Shown one piece after another: positions 59 to 22,188 of a stretch of DNA of 64,000 nt. This stretch comes from Streptomyces coryli (GTDB lineage Bacteria; Actinomycetota; Actinomycetes; Streptomycetales; Streptomycetaceae): the NCBI RefSeq assembly GCF_011044975.1, contig NZ_JAAKZV010000019.1:1-64000 (forward strand), read 5' to 3'. The notes beneath the pieces are model-generated. The model saw only the letters and a program-made list of their open reading frames with translations. It did not search any database and had not been told where the DNA came from. Each line of letters opens with the position of its first letter. The first letter of the stretch is position 1. The position numbers and the translations under genes are program-made.

Positions 59-1018
<960 letters not shown>

Positions 1019-5664: not shown

Positions 5665-6653
5665 TTCGCCAGCACCGGCCAGCTGGACTTGAACTCGGTC
5701 TGCCAATGCGGCCATTCGTGCGAGCCGCCCTGGTAGAAGTGCACCGTCGCCGGGATGCCGAGGGCCTTCAGGCGGTCGGTGAAGCTGTGCGCCTGCACCC
5801 ACAGGGCGCCCTCGAGGACGCCGCCGACGATGAGGTTGGCGAAGTCCTTGTTCGGGCCGAAGCCGGTGCCCTGGGAGACGTAAAGGCCGAGGCCTTTGAG
5901 CTTTTCGGCCTGGGTGTAGGGGTTGTTGGCCTTCCAGGTCGACCGGTTCAGGAGCGGGCCGCCCCACAGGCCGGTGGGGAAGAGGCCCTCGCGGCCGACG
6001 ATCGCGGACACGGTCGTCGGCATCCCGGTGTTGAGGGTGTCGAGAATCCCGCTGTACGAGGCGGCCGCGGTGTACGTGCCCGGGTGCCGGACGGCGGCGG
6101 CCATCGCGCTGTAGCCGCCGGAGGAGATGCCGGCGACGGCACGGGTGCCGTTCGCGCGGTAGTTCTTCTGCAGCAGCTGCCAGACCTCGGTGTTCTGGAA
6201 GGTGTCGTAGTCCGGGCTGTTGCTGCCGAAATTCCACCACTTGCTGACGATGCCGGTCGGCCCGGCGTCGGGGATGACGGTGATGACGTCCTTGTCCGCC
6301 ATGAACTCCTCGACGTCGGTCTGCTCGGTCCAGTCCGAGAACTTCCCGTCGGCGCCGTGGAGGAGATAGAGCACGGGATACGTGCGGTTGGGCTCGGCGT
6401 CGTACGACTTCGGCAGCAGGACCCGTACCGGCGCGGACTTGCCGCCGAGCGCCGGGGACTGCACGGTCAGGTCCACGGCCTGCGCGCCCGCCTGCGTCGT
6501 CTGCGTGATCCGGGCGCCGTCGTCGGCGGCGACCGGCGTGGTGCCGGCGTCCGCGGCGGTGCTGAGGGCGCCGCCGGTGAGCGCGAGAGCGGCGGCCAGG
6601 AGCACGGCGGCGAGCTTGCGGCGGGGGCGCCTGAGGCGACGGGTTCCAGACAC
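5646..6653 (-). CDS. Secreted esterase, antigen 85/esterase D fold (PF00756)
   Basis: A 335-residue exported alpha/beta hydrolase. The N-terminus has a twin-Arg-rich, basic start followed by a long hydrophobic stretch ending near ADAG, consistent with export. The oxyanion-region motif YLLHGADG, the nucleophile GISSGGYSA and the late catalytic His in GGSHEW are visible, as in mycolyltransferase-like and feruloyl-type esterases. Streptomycetes lack mycolic acids, so an ordinary ester substrate is more likely than trehalose mycolate. It is convergent with the secretory lipase. Confidence 0.85.
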   Translation of the reverse strand: MSGTRRLRRPRRKLAAVLLAAALALTGGALSTAADAGTTPVAADDGARITQTTQAGAQAVDLTVQSPALGGKSAPVRVLLPKSYDAEPNRTYPVLYLLHGADGKFSDWTEQTDVEEFMADKDVITVIPDAGPTGIVSKWWNFGSNSPDYDTFQNTEVWQLLQKNYRANGTRAVAGISSGGYSAMAAAVRHPGTYTAAASYSGILDTLNTGMPTTVSAIVGREGLFPTGLWGGPLLNRSTWKANNPYTQAEKLKGLGLYVSQGTGFGPNKDFANLIVGGVLEGALWVQAHSFTDRLKALGIPATVHFYQGGSHEWPHWQTEFKSSWPVLAKGLGVQ

Positions 6654-6742
6654 GACGCAAGGGTCGGCGGTCTTGCGCGCGGCGGTAAGTCGCCGGACTG
6701 ACAGTCGTCCAGGGCCGTTCTGTCAGCGAGGTGACAACCACG

Positions 6743-6748
6743 TACGCT
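6743..6748 (+). promoter_or_regulatory. Probable -10 box of the MqnE-like gene
   Basis: TACGCT, about 40 nt upstream of the start codon of the MqnE-like gene. It suggests the truncated gene still has a promoter of its own. Confidence 0.3.
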
Positions 6749-6788
6749 CTGCCTGACGGCACCGAGCAGGGATGGGGCGTAACGGATC

Positions 6789-7367
6789 ATGAACGCGGAG
6801 CTCAAGCGCCAGCTGGAGAAGAAGGTCGCGAGCGGAGAGCGCCTCGACCGGGCCGACGGCATCGCGCTCTACGAGTCCGGGGACCTGGCGTGGCTGGGCG
6901 GCCTCGCGCACGGGGTGCGCACGGCGCGGCACGGGGACGCGGGGTTCTTCGGCGCGGGTGACGCCGTCGAGGCGCCGCTGTCGTACGGGGCCGACGCCGG
7001 CGAGCTCGTCGATGAGCTGCTCGCGCTGCGCGAGCAGGAGGGCTTCGAGGTCCTGGTCCCCACCCGCGCCTCGGACGCGGTCACCGGCGCCCAGACGCTG
7101 AAGACGTACGCCGTCGCCCGCCTGCTGGTGGACACCATCCCGCACCTGCGGACCTCGGCCGACGCCGACGGCGAGCAGGGCGCGAAGCTGGCGCTGCAGC
7201 ACGGGGCGGATGAGCTGGCGGGCGACCTCAGCGATGAGGACCTGGTCATCCTGATCCGGGAGGCGGGCTTCCGTCCGGTGGAGCGGGGTGCGTCCTACGC
7301 GGTCGTCGCCGAGCACCCGGGGCCGGACGCGTCTTTGCGTGAGACGCCGCAGGCAATGCGCCTCTGA
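6789..7367 (+). CDS. MqnE-like protein lacking the radical-SAM core
   Basis: A 192-residue protein built from the two ends of aminofutalosine synthase MqnE. Residues 1-50 match the MqnE N-terminus (ERLDRADGIALYE, DLAWLGGLAH). Residues about 70-192 match its C-terminus (ELVDELLALRE, LKTYAVARLL, LALQHGADEL, LIREAGFRPVER, ETPQAMRL). The roughly 200 residues between, including the CxxxCxxC iron-sulfur loop, are gone, and two further short blocks near the C-terminus are also missing. The protein has no cysteine at all, so it cannot be a radical-SAM enzyme. The frame is intact with normal codon use, which argues against recent decay. Function unknown; a full mqnE is expected elsewhere in the genome. 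Confidence 0.8.
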   Translation: MNAELKRQLEKKVASGERLDRADGIALYESGDLAWLGGLAHGVRTARHGDAGFFGAGDAVEAPLSYGADAGELVDELLALREQEGFEVLVPTRASDAVTGAQTLKTYAVARLLVDTIPHLRTSADADGEQGAKLALQHGADELAGDLSDEDLVILIREAGFRPVERGASYAVVAEHPGPDASLRETPQAMRL

Positions 7368-7418
7368 GCGGCCGCGTGCCGGTCGCATCGGCGGCCGCCG
7401 GAAACGTCCGGGCCCACC

Positions 7419-7437
7419 CGTCCCGCCATGCGGGACG
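7419..7437 (+). terminator. Small hairpin after the MqnE-like gene
   Basis: CGTCCCGC (7419-7426) and GCGGGACG (7430-7437) form an 8-bp stem with a 3-nt loop between the MqnE-like gene and the promoter of the acetyltransferase gene. No T-run follows. Confidence 0.4.
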
Positions 7438-7477
7438 CCTGCCCCCGAGGGGTACGGCCCGGATTAGCCTCGCTCCT

Positions 7478-7999
7478 ATGCATTTCCAGCTCGACCCCCC
7501 GATCGACCGCCCGCTCCGCGATCAGCTCCTCGCCCTCTGGTCGGACGTCACCGACGCGGGCGGGGCCGTCGGGTTTCTGCCGGGGACCGATCCGGAGGAG
7601 ATACGGCCCGAGCTCGTGCGGCATCTCGTCGCCATGGCCGAGGGGCGGGCGCGGCTGCTCGTCGGGCGGGACGAGGAGGACGGGCGGGTGACCGCCAGCG
7701 CGTTCGTGTACTTCAACGGGCACCGGCTGATGAAGCACTGGATCTGGGTCTACACCGTGATGGTGCACCCGGAGCAGCAGGGCGGCGGCAGCGGCCGCGC
7801 GCTGATGGCCGCCGTCGCCGAGGCCGCCCGCGGGTTCGGCGGCATCGAGGGGATCCGGCTCACCTGCCGCGGCGGCACCGGGGCCGAGCACTTCTACGCC
7901 GCGTGCGGATACAAGGAGGTCGGGCGGGTGCCGGGGGCGATCCGTACCGACGACGGGGACCGCGACGACATCACCATGTGGCTGCCCCTGCATACTTAG
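7478..7999 (+). CDS. GNAT-family N-acetyltransferase
   Basis: A 173-residue protein with a single GNAT domain. The acetyl-CoA-binding motif A is visible as VMVHPEQQGGGSGRALM near residue 92, followed by EHFYAACGYKEVGR typical of motif B. A longer upstream reading is rejected because a -10 box TAGCCT (7465-7470) ends 7 nt before this ATG, so the mRNA is probably leaderless. The acceptor substrate is unknown. It is followed closely by a DUF4229 gene and may share its transcript. Confidence 0.85.
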   Translation: MHFQLDPPIDRPLRDQLLALWSDVTDAGGAVGFLPGTDPEEIRPELVRHLVAMAEGRARLLVGRDEEDGRVTASAFVYFNGHRLMKHWIWVYTVMVHPEQQGGGSGRALMAAVAEAARGFGGIEGIRLTCRGGTGAEHFYAACGYKEVGRVPGAIRTDDGDRDDITMWLPLHT

Positions 8000-8049: not shown

Positions 8050-8394
8050 TTGTCCGCCGTGAGCACCCCCAAGCCGAGCGCCGCCCTCCGCTACACCGCG
8101 ATGCGTCTGGGCATCTTCGCCGTCTGCTTCATCGTCCTCGCCGGCCTGGTCCGGCTGCGGGTGCTGCCCGCGGGCCTGGGCGACTCCAACTATCTGTGGG
8201 TGCTGCTGCTCGCGCTCGTCGTCTCGATGCCGCTGAGCCTCGTGCTGCTGCGGCGCCAGCGGGACGAGATGTCCGCGCAGATCGTCGGCCGCATGGACCG
8301 TGCGAAGGAGCGGCTCGACGCGAACCGCGACATGGAGGACGAGGCCGTCGACAACGCCGCCGCCGCCGAGCGACGGAACGACGCGCAGCAGTAA
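8050..8394 (+). CDS. DUF4229 small membrane protein
   Basis: A 114-residue protein with two hydrophobic segments (about residues 20-40 and 50-70) followed by a charged C-terminal tail rich in Asp, Glu and Arg, as in the DUF4229 family common beside menaquinone genes in actinobacteria. The TTG at 8050 has AGGAGAGA about 5 nt upstream; a GTG nine bases later is the alternative start. No enzymatic residues are evident. The function is not known. Confidence 0.75.
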   Translation: MSAVSTPKPSAALRYTAMRLGIFAVCFIVLAGLVRLRVLPAGLGDSNYLWVLLLALVVSMPLSLVLLRRQRDEMSAQIVGRMDRAKERLDANRDMEDEAVDNAAAAERRNDAQQ

Positions 8395-17835: not shown

Positions 17836-18321
17836 CTACTCGACGTCCTCCGCCAGCTCCCCCACCCGGTGCTCCCACTTGGTCGACAGCACGATCGTCG
17901 ACCGGGTACGGGAAACGCCCTTGATGCCGGACAGCCGCCGGATGGTCCGCTCCAGGCCGTCCACGTCGCCCGCACGCACCTTCAGCATGTACGAGTCGTC
18001 GCCCGCGATGAACCAGCAGTCCTCGATCTCGGTGACATCCCGCAGCCGGTGCGCCACGTCCTCGTGGTCCACCGCGTCGGACAGCTGCACGCCGATCAGC
18101 GCGGTCACGCCGAGCCCGAGTCTCGCCGCGTCCACGGTGGCGCGATAGCCGGTGATCACGCCGGCCGTCTCCAGCCGGTTGATCCGGTCGGTGACGCTGG
18201 GGCCCGAGAGCCCCACCAGCCGGCCCAGCTCCGCATACGAGGCCCTGCCGTTTTCGCGCAGGGCCTTGATGAGCTGCCTGTCGACCTCGTCCATGTTGGT
18301 GTAGCGCCTTCCGTCACTCAC
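17836..18321 (-). CDS. Lrp/AsnC-family regulator next to menaquinone genes
   Basis: A 161-residue regulator with an N-terminal winged HTH (ELGRLVGLSGPSVTDRINRLE, about residues 31-51) and a C-terminal RAM ligand domain with the GDDSYMLKVR strand. GTG at 18321 overlaps the stop of the UbiX-type gene as GTGA, indicating translational coupling; ATG at 18294 is an alternative with GGAAGG upstream. Its place at the end of a quinone-gene run suggests local regulation, which is inference. Confidence 0.88.
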   Translation of the reverse strand: MSDGRRYTNMDEVDRQLIKALRENGRASYAELGRLVGLSGPSVTDRINRLETAGVITGYRATVDAARLGLGVTALIGVQLSDAVDHEDVAHRLRDVTEIEDCWFIAGDDSYMLKVRAGDVDGLERTIRRLSGIKGVSRTRSTIVLSTKWEHRVGELAEDVE

Positions 18322-19027
18322 GGCTGTCTCTCCCGGGGTGCTGCGCCCCCAGCTCCCCTTCCCACCTGCGATAGAGCTTGTGCGGCACGCCGGCCGAGTC
18401 AAGCACCCGGCCCGCGACGAAGTCGACGAGGTCCTGGATGCCGGTGGCGCCCGCGTAGAAGGCGGGCGACGCCGGCAGCACCACGGCGCCCGCCTCGTCG
18501 AGGGCGACCAGGTGCTTGAGGGTCGTACCTGCCAGCGGGGTCTCGCGCACGGCGACGACCAGCGGCCGCCGCTCCTTGAGCGTCACGCTCGCGGCCCGCT
18601 GCAGCAAATCCTTGGAGAGCCCGAGCGCCACCCCCGCGACACACGCGGTGGAGGCCGGGACGATGAGCATGCCCTTCGCCGGATACGAGCCGGACGACGG
18701 GCCCGCCGCGAGATCACCCGCCGCCCAGTGGCGTACGGCATCGTCGGGCAGATGCACGTCGAAGGCGTCCTTGCGGCCGCCCGCCCCGGTCGCGAGCCAG
18801 CGGCGCAGGTCCTCGCGCCAGTGCGCGTCGCGGAAGGGGCTCCCGGTCTCGTCGAGGATCGTCAGCCGGGCCGCCCGGCTGACCACCAGGTCGACGGCTT
18901 CGCCCGCGTGCAGGAGGGCGCGCAGCACGGCCGCGGCATACGGGGTGCCGGAGGCCCCGGACACCCCGACGATCCAGGGACGGCGGGCGTTGCCCGCGGC
19001 GCTGGGGGTCGAAGGCGGCTGGTCCAC
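18314..19027 (-). CDS. mqnM: UbiX-type flavin prenyltransferase (MqnM)
   Basis: Makes prenylated FMN, the cofactor used by UbiD-type decarboxylases. The 237-residue protein has the UbiX/Pad1 signatures VGVSGASGTPYA near residue 20, the PASTACVAG segment near residue 125 and the KERRPLVVAVRETPL motif that holds the phosphate-binding residues. It starts at GTG. The partner decarboxylase gene lies 1.7 kb upstream on the same strand, with the prenyltransferase gene and an opposite-strand rhomboid gene between. In the futalosine pathway this protein is called MqnM. Confidence 0.9.
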   Translation of the reverse strand: MDQPPSTPSAAGNARRPWIVGVSGASGTPYAAAVLRALLHAGEAVDLVVSRAARLTILDETGSPFRDAHWREDLRRWLATGAGGRKDAFDVHLPDDAVRHWAAGDLAAGPSSGSYPAKGMLIVPASTACVAGVALGLSKDLLQRAASVTLKERRPLVVAVRETPLAGTTLKHLVALDEAGAVVLPASPAFYAGATGIQDLVDFVAGRVLDSAGVPHKLYRRWEGELGAQHPGRDSRE

Positions 19028-19828: not shown

Positions 19829-20743
19829 TCAGATCGTCAGGCCCCTGACCAGCAGATCCAGCAGCGCGCAGACGAAGAGCGCGATGCCGATGAAGCCGTT
19901 GACGGTGAAGAAGGCTCGGTTCAGGCGGCTCAGGTCGCCCGGCTTGACCAGGCTGTGCTCGTAGACGAAGGCCACCGCCACGATGACCAGGCCGAACCAG
20001 AAGAACCCGCCCGCGTCGGTGGCCAGCGCGTACCAGGCGAAGAGCAGCACCGTGACCACATGGCAGGCGCGGGCGCCGTACAGCGCGGCCGGGATACCGA
20101 AGCGGGCCGGGACCGACTTCACGCCGTGGGCGCGGTCCGCGGCCACGTCCTGGCAGCCGAAGATGAGGTCGAAGCCGCCGATCCAGATGCCGACCGCGAG
20201 GCCGAGGATCACCGCGTCCCAGGACCAGCTGCCGCTGATCGCGATCCAGGCGCCGACCGGGCCCATCGCCTGGGCCAGGCCCAGGATCGCGTGCGGGAAG
20301 TTCGTGAACCGCTTCCCGTACGGATAGACCACCATCGGCACGATCGCGATGGGCGCGAGCGCCAGGCAGAGCGGGTTGAGCAGCGCCGCGGCGCCCAGGA
20401 AGACGGCCAGCGCCACCGCGGCGCCGGTCCACCCCTGCCGTACGGAGACGGCGCCGGTGACGATCTCCCGCCCGGCCGTGCGCGGGTTCTTCGCGTCGAT
20501 CTCGCGGTCGATGATCCGGTTCGCCGCCATGGCGAAGGTGCGCAGGCCGACCATGGCGATGGTGACGAGCAGCAGCCGGCCCCAGTGGATGTTCTCGTCC
20601 CACTGGAACATCGCGGTGAGCGCCGCGATGTACGCGAACGGCAGCGCGAACACCGAGTGCTCGATCATGACCAGGCGCAGAAACGCCTTCACCTTGCTGC
20701 TGGGCTGTGGTGCGGGCCCGACGACCCCTTCGGCAGCGGCCAT
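19829..20743 (-). CDS. mqnP: UbiA-family prenyltransferase of menaquinone synthesis (MqnP)
   Basis: Attaches the polyprenyl chain to the naphthoquinone precursor in the membrane. The 304-residue polytopic protein has both Asp-rich metal motifs: NRIIDREID (about residue 76) and DLIFGCQDVAADRAHG (about residue 195). The ATG overlaps the UbiD-type stop codon as TGATG, so the two genes are translationally coupled. It belongs to the pathway-specific subgroup found with futalosine genes. Confidence 0.92.
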   Translation of the reverse strand: MAAAEGVVGPAPQPSSKVKAFLRLVMIEHSVFALPFAYIAALTAMFQWDENIHWGRLLLVTIAMVGLRTFAMAANRIIDREIDAKNPRTAGREIVTGAVSVRQGWTGAAVALAVFLGAAALLNPLCLALAPIAIVPMVVYPYGKRFTNFPHAILGLAQAMGPVGAWIAISGSWSWDAVILGLAVGIWIGGFDLIFGCQDVAADRAHGVKSVPARFGIPAALYGARACHVVTVLLFAWYALATDAGGFFWFGLVIVAVAFVYEHSLVKPGDLSRLNRAFFTVNGFIGIALFVCALLDLLVRGLTI

Positions 20744-22188
20744 CAGAGTCCGTACTCCTTCCATCTGCGGTCGACCTTCGCCGCCGTCTCCGGGTCGGAG
20801 ACCACCATCTCCGGCCAGCCGCGGTCGTAGCCCTCCTCGGGCCACTTCGTGGTGGCGTCGATGCCCGCCTTGCCGCCCCAGAACTGCTGGTACGAGGCGT
20901 GGTCGAGATGGTCCACCGGGCCCTCGACGACGGAGAGGTCGCGGGCGTAGTCCGTGTTCCCGAGCGCCCGCCAGGCAACCTCGTGCAGGTCGTGCACGTC
21001 GCAGTCGGCGTCGACCACGATGATCAGCTTGGTCAGCGACATCATGTGCGCGCCCCAGACGGCGTGCATGACCTTCTGCGCGTGCTTCGGGTACTTCTTG
21101 TCGATCGAGACGATCGCGCAGTTGTGGAAGCCGCCGGCCTCGGGGAGGTGGTAGTCCACGATGTCCGGGATGATGATCTTGAGGAGCGGAAGGAAGAACC
21201 GCTCGGTGGCGCGGCCCAGCGGCCCGTCCTCGGTCGGCGGGCGGCCGACGACGATGGACTGGAGCAGCGGGCGCTTGCGCATGGTGACGCAGTCGATGGT
21301 CAGGGCCGGGAAGGGCTCCTGCGGGGTGTAGAAGCCGGTGTGGTCGCCGAAGGGGCCCTCCGGGAGCATCTCACCGGGCTCCAGCCAGCCCTCGATGACG
21401 ACCTCGGCATTGGCCGGGACCTGCAGCGGGACGGTCTTGCAGTCGACCATCTCGATCCGCTTGCCCTGGAGGAAGCCGGCGAAGAGGTACTCGTCGATGT
21501 CGCCGGGGAGCGGCGCGGTGGACGCGTAGGTGACGGCCGGCGGGCAGCCGAAGGCGATCGCGACCGGCAGCTTCTCGCCCTTACGGGCGGCCACCTGGTA
21601 GTGGTTCCGGCTGTCCTTGTGGATCTGCCAGTGCATGCCGATGGTGTTGCGGTCGTGCCGCTGCAGCCGGTAGAGCCCGAGATTCCGTACGCCCGTCTCC
21701 GGGTCCTTGGTGTGCGTCAGCCCGAGGTTGAAGAAGGACCCGCCGTCCTCCGGCCAGGTGAAGAGCGCCGGGAGCTGGTCGAGGTCGACGTCGTCGCCCT
21801 GCAGGACCACCTCCTGCACCGGCGCGTCCTTCACCTTCTTCGGCGGCACGTGCGTCATCCCGGCCAGCTTCCCGAAGGCCTCGCGGAAGCCGGTGAAGCC
21901 CTGCGGCAGCTCGGGCTTCAGCAGCCCGCCGATCTTGTCGCTGATGTCCTCGTACGAGTCCAGGCCGAGGGCCTTCAGCAGCCGCCGGTCGGTCCCGAAG
22001 ACGTTCATGGCCAGCGGCATCGCCGCGCCCTTGACGTTCTCGAAGAGCAGCGCGGGCCCGCCCGCCTTGTTGACCCGGTCGGTGATCTCACCGACCTCGA
22101 GGTACGGATCCACCTCGGCCTTGATCCGCTTGAGGTCACCGTCGCGCTCCAGCGCCCGCAGCAGCGAGCGGAGATCGTCGTAAGCCAT
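20743..22188 (-). CDS. mqnL: UbiD-type decarboxylase of menaquinone synthesis (MqnL)
   Basis: Removes the carboxyl group of the naphthoquinone intermediate using prenyl-FMN. The 481-residue protein shows the UbiD hallmarks: IGMHWQIHKD near residue 180, a PEGPFGDHTGFY motif near residue 285 with the catalytic Glu-Arg-Glu network region, and KLIIVVDADCDVHD near residue 395. It is the first gene of the coupled mqnL-mqnP unit. Length is standard. Confidence 0.93.
   Translation of the reverse strand: MAYDDLRSLLRALERDGDLKRIKAEVDPYLEVGEITDRVNKAGGPALLFENVKGAAMPLAMNVFGTDRRLLKALGLDSYEDISDKIGGLLKPELPQGFTGFREAFGKLAGMTHVPPKKVKDAPVQEVVLQGDDVDLDQLPALFTWPEDGGSFFNLGLTHTKDPETGVRNLGLYRLQRHDRNTIGMHWQIHKDSRNHYQVAARKGEKLPVAIAFGCPPAVTYASTAPLPGDIDEYLFAGFLQGKRIEMVDCKTVPLQVPANAEVVIEGWLEPGEMLPEGPFGDHTGFYTPQEPFPALTIDCVTMRKRPLLQSIVVGRPPTEDGPLGRATERFFLPLLKIIIPDIVDYHLPEAGGFHNCAIVSIDKKYPKHAQKVMHAVWGAHMMSLTKLIIVVDADCDVHDLHEVAWRALGNTDYARDLSVVEGPVDHLDHASYQQFWGGKAGIDATTKWPEEGYDRGWPEMVVSDPETAAKVDRRWKEYGL

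Follow-up and report, generated by a model that had tools for sequence, protein, structure and literature searches.

The open reading frame at 6789..7367 (+) of the window, i.e., the whole 64-kb stretch of DNA analysed here, is read, with a probability of about 0.5, as a selected pseudoenzyme derived from MqnE (aminofutalosine synthase), which would probably serve the futalosine pathway as a non-catalytic partner while some other enzyme synthesizes aminofutalosine. Pseudoenzymes are catalytically dead homologues retained as scaffolds or regulators. Here, homology to an active enzyme, loss of catalytic residues and purifying selection among relatives are all found. Streptomyces use menaquinone as their respiratory quinone; in other bacteria, the futalosine pathway serves as a drug target. 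In some Streptomyces the "vitamin K2 gene" mqnE is shrunken at its own usual locus, with its catalytic parts gone, and yet preserved. We refer to such genes, which lack the radical-SAM cluster loop, as coreless.

Relation of the window protein to MqnE

Translation of the window gives an open frame of 192 aa with no cysteine, in which both ends of MqnE are retained and the CxxxCxxC loop is gone. The product matches the NCBIfam model TIGR03700 (MqnE) in two stretches (E 6.2e-22) with 78 bits, which falls well short of the curated cut-off of 434.55 bits; a long coreless form from another genome, G010, scores 242 bits and is also below it. The solved MqnE structure 6xi9 is matched in three pieces (E 5.3e-14). 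In a Pfam search with E up to 1, the sole match was CofH_C, sub-threshold at E 0.0021, and Radical_SAM (PF04055) was not matched. Compared with a 387-aa Streptomyces MqnE, residues 57–208, 239–242, 252–270 and 324–341 are absent, for a total of 195 including short gaps, and the CxxxCxxC loop of the reference (C66–C73) lies inside the first of these blocks. The edges of this large block depend on the alignment, a second one giving 56–99, 105–175 and 178–214. The coreless protein therefore resembles MqnE (TIGR03700; 6xi9, 6xig) in its ends, its predicted fold and, in most relatives, its locus, whereas the window protein differs in the missing cluster cysteines, the lost residues and the low score.

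The sequence-only reading had already noticed the two MqnE ends, the absence of cysteine and the open frame, all of which are seen in the translation and in the TIGR03700 and 6xi9 matches. Its estimate of about 200 lost central residues plus two short blocks agrees with the total, whereas the main block comprises only about 150 residues. Its promoter-like −10 box was not recovered: a sigma-70 consensus scan of 6600–7480 gave no promoter-like and no terminator-like sites, although Streptomyces promoters frequently depart from this consensus. A tblastn search with the window protein and one relative as queries found no other MqnE-like gene within the 64-kb window. The features discussed below are as follows.

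59..904 (−): MqnA (VitK2_biosynth), 281 aa; domain match
6789..7367 (+): coreless MqnE, 192 aa, no cysteine; TIGR03700, 6xi9 and fold matches, relatives under purifying selection
6789..6956 (+): retained N-terminal part, MqnE residues 1–56, three helices and first strand; alignment and model
6957..7067 (+): junction where about 150 residues including the CxxxCxxC loop have been lost, followed by a kept barrel helix and strand; edges vary with the alignment
7068..7364 (+): retained C-terminal part, which includes the LALQHGADE block and PQAMRL end but not MqnE blocks 252–270 and 324–341; alignment
7478..7999 (+): GNAT acetyltransferase, a downstream neighbour of mqnE that is conserved in many compared loci; domain match and locus comparison
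8059..8394 (+): conserved small protein that comes next in the mqnE locus, with no Pfam and no NCBIfam match; locus comparison
17836..18294 (−): AsnC/Lrp regulator; domain match and locus comparison
18314..18928 (−): protein which we take, from its sequence, to be UbiX-like; ortholog cluster 5
19829..20692 (−): presumably a UbiA-like prenyltransferase of MqnP type; ortholog cluster 4
20743..22188 (−): UbiD-type decarboxylase; domain match and locus comparison

Position in the mqnE locus

In MqnE-bearing genomes, the locus runs in the order UbiD, UbiA, UbiX, AsnC/Lrp regulator, mqnE, GNAT and small protein, and in most relatives the coreless gene occupies the slot of the full mqnE in this same order. 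The window retains the GNAT side. The AsnC/Lrp regulator, which is directly upstream of mqnE in most compared loci, is about 10 kb distant in the window, and the AsnC-to-UbiD side sits at 17.8–22.2 kb with its order inverted, as would result from a local inversion with one end beside the coreless gene. The coreless gene lies away from the mqnE locus in S. abyssomicinicus and S. fragilis.

Coreless relatives and purifying selection

A scan of genome contigs revealed 11 loci with coreless relatives, every one of them in Streptomyces, and no cluster loop was found when these relatives were read out. The forms have the same ends and fall into three size classes, i.e., long (322–357 aa), middle (272–274 aa) and short (192–212 aa). 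The CxxxCxxC loop is absent from all 16 aligned coreless forms and likewise from two found by a later search, G193 (205 aa, the closest relative among the matches scored at 58% identity) and G306 (326 aa); G267 and G201, also matched by that search, proved to be full MqnE. Because only eight candidates per genome were scored, its yield at an E limit of 1e-20, namely 11 of 392 genomes, is no measure of frequency. Blocks at both ends are invariant across 12 aligned coreless sequences. All coreless genes that can be read end to end have open frames (the window, 15 relatives, G193 and G306), and that of G060 is cut by the end of a 7,114-base contig, with its last 94 residues visible. The recurrence of loop-less forms across many separately sequenced genomes makes an assembly error very unlikely as the source of the coreless form.

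Coreless genes are kept by purifying selection. Pairwise maximum-likelihood omega for eight close pairs was 0.048, 0.164, 0.102, 0.141, 0.144, 0.094, 0.078 and 0.119, with likelihood ratios against omega = 1 of 33.6 to 108; three further close pairs gave 0.194, 0.092 and 0.172 (likelihood ratios 66.3, 30.9 and 24.7). These 11 pairs are partly non-independent (G009/G011/G098 and G057/G115/G193), and the range of 0.048–0.194 refers to close pairs, the distant window pairs being set apart from it. Among the latter, the window and G193 gave omega 0.103 (likelihood ratio 73.6), a value that is approximate because t is 1.85, and the four other window pairs have t of 1.7 or more, one of them unbounded. 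For comparison, five pairs of full-length MqnE gave omega of 0.005–0.021, such that the coreless gene evolves about 10 times more freely. Constraint in the long and middle forms extends to the middle (omega 0.087–0.285) as well as to the retained ends (0.075–0.135).

The rival view that the gene is a decaying pseudogene left after another enzyme took over, its open frame being a by-product of high GC, gains something from the very different lengths among lineages and from a neutral point-mutation simulation of three coreless genes to 55% identity, in which the frame stayed open in 20, 24 and 35 of 200 runs (10–17.5%). An open frame is thus weak evidence in such GC-rich DNA, and the case rests on conservation and dN/dS. 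On these grounds decay is largely refuted and most improbable: omega is far below 1 in every close pair (likelihood ratios 24.7 to 108), the end blocks are invariant, and no readable frame is broken. The same orthologues and omega values rule out a fresh deletion, in agreement with the sequence-only reading, which had favoured a refashioned gene. Orthologues in other streptomycetes, for which it had proposed a search, occur in several Streptomyces lineages and are under selection, whereas it had tied a pseudogene to missing orthologues and relaxed selection.

Absence of full-length MqnE

With the TIGR03700 cut-off, no full-length MqnE was found in 15 of the 16 searched genomes that carry the coreless gene. 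These 16 comprise the 11 first found together with G057, G060, G083, G098 and G115; G193, G306 and the window genome stand outside the count. The one exception, among the 11 found via the coreless gene, is S. albus NRRL B-1811 (G003), which has MqnE over the cut-off on a different contig. In a sample of 150 Streptomyces genomes, MqnE was over the cut-off in 141. One of those below it, G129, possesses a full-length MqnE with the motif CTASCAYC that is split over two frames, so that MqnE-less genomes number eight of 150, and all eight contain a coreless relative (G001, G010 and G011, all three also among the 11 first found, plus G057, G060, G083, G098 and G115). In the fragmented assembly of G129 (L248), mqnC is likewise split over two frames, and the profile score alone had suggested an MqnE-less genome. 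Although the G060 assembly is also fragmented, several MqnE-less assemblies have a single large contig (G004, 7.5 Mb; G098, 6.9 Mb; G057, 8.0 Mb; G115, 8.6 Mb), so assembly gaps are unlikely to be the cause of the missing MqnE.

Most relatives occupy the very locus of mqnE, and another MqnE is lacking from 15 of the 16 searched genomes; the coreless gene is therefore the locus's own mqnE or its replacement. The paralogue assumed by the sequence-only reading is rejected on these grounds. In general, pseudoenzymes are likewise homologues of enzymes that have lost catalytic parts and are kept by selection; the difference here is that the dead copy is what stays at the mqnE locus, and most genomes show no active copy.

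A complete MqnE elsewhere in the window strain, which would make its coreless gene redundant, is quite improbable. The model for such a case is S. albus NRRL B-1811, where contig C35 carries the full MqnE together with a second MqnC and MqnA/D-type genes, and Streptomyces plasmids can bear annotated mqnE. The 15 MqnE-less relatives, among them the assemblies with single contigs of 6.9–8.6 Mb, argue against redundancy, which would also leave the selection on the coreless gene unexplained.

Another possibility is that an unrelated enzyme carries out the MqnE step and that the coreless protein has a separate task outside the pathway, in regulation or structure. This is consistent with a gene that is retained by selection but evolves faster than MqnE, and with its location outside the mqn locus in S. 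abyssomicinicus and S. fragilis. However, the gene remains in the menaquinone locus in all other compared loci, and among genomes tested for MqnE it stands beside a full MqnE in G003 only. We consider a separate task unlikely, though a serious contender to the pathway-partner reading.

The remaining futalosine pathway and menaquinone

The other futalosine enzymes are kept in the coreless genomes. MqnA/MqnD-type genes are present in 11/11 of the first-found genomes and in three further MqnE-less genomes tested, with G083 showing one only. MqnB exceeds the cut-off in 15 of 16, all but G060, and MqnC was read from all 16. None of 21 genomes has a MenD above the cut-off and none of 11 a MenB, and a switch to the classical menaquinone pathway was rejected on this basis. 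Two of the coreless loci, L007 and L008, belong to the strains S. diacarni LHW51701 and S. reniochalinae LHW50302, for which Table 3 of PMC10100901 lists MK-9(H4), MK-9(H6) and MK-9(H8), after an earlier paper. Menaquinone is therefore made without a recognisable MqnE in both. Thus, a set of Streptomyces, two of them with published MK-9, keeps the other enzymes of the pathway but not the radical-SAM step of MqnE, suggesting either that another enzyme makes aminofutalosine in MqnE-less strains or that the dead MqnE lets another enzyme do so. S. abyssomicinicus (G001) has a third MqnA/MqnD-type gene (L077), 58% identical to the window MqnA, and no second MqnE was found in its genome.

Search for a replacing enzyme

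No new radical-SAM family was common to the MqnE-less genomes G001, G007 and G010 and absent from the MqnE-bearing G045 and G051. This comparison covers 87 motif-bearing ORFs from five genomes, clustered at >45% identity, and proteins detectable by PF04055; it assumes a common replacement, whereas each lineage could use its own enzyme.

Alternatively, no new enzyme is needed if the coreless protein acts as a specificity subunit that binds the radical-SAM enzyme MqnC (or CofGH) and enables it to catalyze the MqnE reaction. MqnC is homologous to MqnE, and the 12 coreless sequences of one set all match the MqnC model as well. In addition, MqnC is kept in MqnE-less genomes that share no extra radical-SAM family, and residues not seen in 50 MqnE-bearing genomes number 10–28 in the MqnC of 16 coreless genomes versus 1–17 in ten MqnE-bearing controls. 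However, only residue 394, together with the N-terminus, departs in all five MqnE-less lineages from nearly all MqnE-bearing sequences; sites 20, 219, 273 and 386 show the same change in two MqnE-less lineages each. A first MqnC tree, from a biased MqnE-bearing sample, placed the MqnE-less genomes in one clade (90/77), whereas with 20 more genomes four changes were needed, of which the starred branches force one only, and in the larger sample the branch lengths of MqnE-less genomes overlap those of MqnE-bearing ones. We regard a specificity subunit as improbable and retain the reading in which the coreless protein is a non-catalytic partner and some other enzyme makes aminofutalosine.

MqnA sites that are fixed in 12 MqnE-bearing genomes show differences in a single clade (nine of 14, and one more at two sites), and no MqnD site was fixed in MqnE-bearing but changed in MqnE-less genomes (12 versus 13). 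As gained neighbour genes, two candidates were rejected: a uracil-DNA glycosylase, which is also near mqnE in the MqnE-bearing G042, and a lipoprotein-like gene, which has distant homologues in seven MqnE-bearing genomes. The glycosylase family gene is at or near the GNAT slot downstream of coreless mqnE (L007, 6492–7184; L010, 8349–9038), in G010 and some members of the S. albus clade.

Predicted structure and proposed role

The strand-to-helix loop face of the radical-SAM barrel holds the cluster, SAM and substrate. The model of the long form from G010 (pLDDT 83.8, pTM 0.83) has MqnE 6xig as its best match (TM 0.84), and the three large MqnE blocks it has lost, at about 66–89, 178–185 and 252–268, each fall between a strand and the next helix, a placement good to within about one residue of alignment uncertainty. 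The long form is thus predicted to be the MqnE barrel minus its catalytic-face loops. For the window form, the best of five models (pLDDT 70.7, pTM 0.67; the other four, pLDDT 43–54) retains the N-terminal helices along with some of the barrel, and short forms such as 6789–7367 are modelled as also lacking most of the barrel. The first fold match of this model is again MqnE 6xig (TM 0.78, E 1.5e-7), and on the strength of this predicted fold the likeness of the window product to MqnE is not due to chance.

The catalytic-face loops (the cluster loop, about 178–185 and 252–268) are thus the parts lost in the long family members, with the barrel kept. Given that neither a cluster site nor a SAM site remains in the sequence, aminofutalosine synthase activity is expected to be absent. 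The coreless protein would work non-catalytically, its N-terminal helices and C-terminal alpha/beta portion allowing it to dock with other menaquinone enzymes or to serve them as a scaffold, and the aminofutalosine-forming step would fall to an enzyme other than a recognisable MqnE. Binding of partner enzymes is possible and is the role we prefer among those that the sequence-only reading had raised. Regulation of MqnE is unlikely, because 15 of the 16 searched genomes lack a full MqnE on which it could act; binding of the pathway's substrate is also unlikely, the long forms having lost the strand-to-helix loops of the barrel's catalytic face. A more ambitious version, which we put forward tentatively and hold to be rather less probable than not, is that coreless MqnE arose once, then took the place of mqnE at its own locus in several lineages through gene transfer, and would constitute the necessary non-catalytic half of a new aminofutalosine-forming system in about 5% of Streptomyces species (8/150). 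Across the family, a radical-SAM fold is seen reduced to several different degrees while still under selection.

Origin and spread

In a tree of five neighbour proteins from 35 genomes, 13 coreless genomes fall into three groups, and well-supported branches force all three changes. The coreless genomes are united in none of 200 bootstrap trees, and a single clade is rejected (p-AU 0.0037). This tree covers genomes with at least 500 neighbour-gene residues, which leaves out, among others, G001, G002, G005 and G060. The mqnE gene tree, by contrast, joins the coreless forms with support of 100/99 (100/100 for nine long forms), and placing G010 and G306 with the MqnE-bearing G021 is rejected (p-AU 0.0097). 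G129 and G060 were left out of the coreless gene trees, and G129 out of the MqnC trees. The gene tree shows long branches and skewed composition, and its coreless grouping may be an artefact. G010, G306 and the S. albus clade have almost identical sets of three deletions. Taken together, the gene tree, the neighbour tree and the common deletions suggest one origin of the coreless form, followed by transfer or differential loss; given the warnings on branch length and composition, parallel loss in separate lineages may have occurred instead.

Published context and second mqn sets

No report of a coreless MqnE was found among the open-licence papers matched by literature searches, and none of those matched on radical-SAM pseudoenzymes concerns MqnE by its title. 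The word "mqnE" is absent from the main text of PMC3914697 and PMC13386864.

Second mqn sets with a full-length MqnE outside the primary locus were observed in G003 (L112 and L113, contig C35) and in G024 (L115), the latter adjoining a 2,455-residue ORF of polyketide-synthase size. They resemble the mqn genes of naphthoquinone gene clusters, such as PM100117 of S. caniferus (PMC4763440), which also form a second set outside the primary locus, and we infer that both sets belong to naphthoquinone-type gene clusters. The MqnE there is full-length, whereas the primary locus is where the coreless gene resides. In addition, annotated mqnE genes occur on seven Streptomyces plasmids (H1–H7) of 238–682 kb, with matches of about 1.16 kb.
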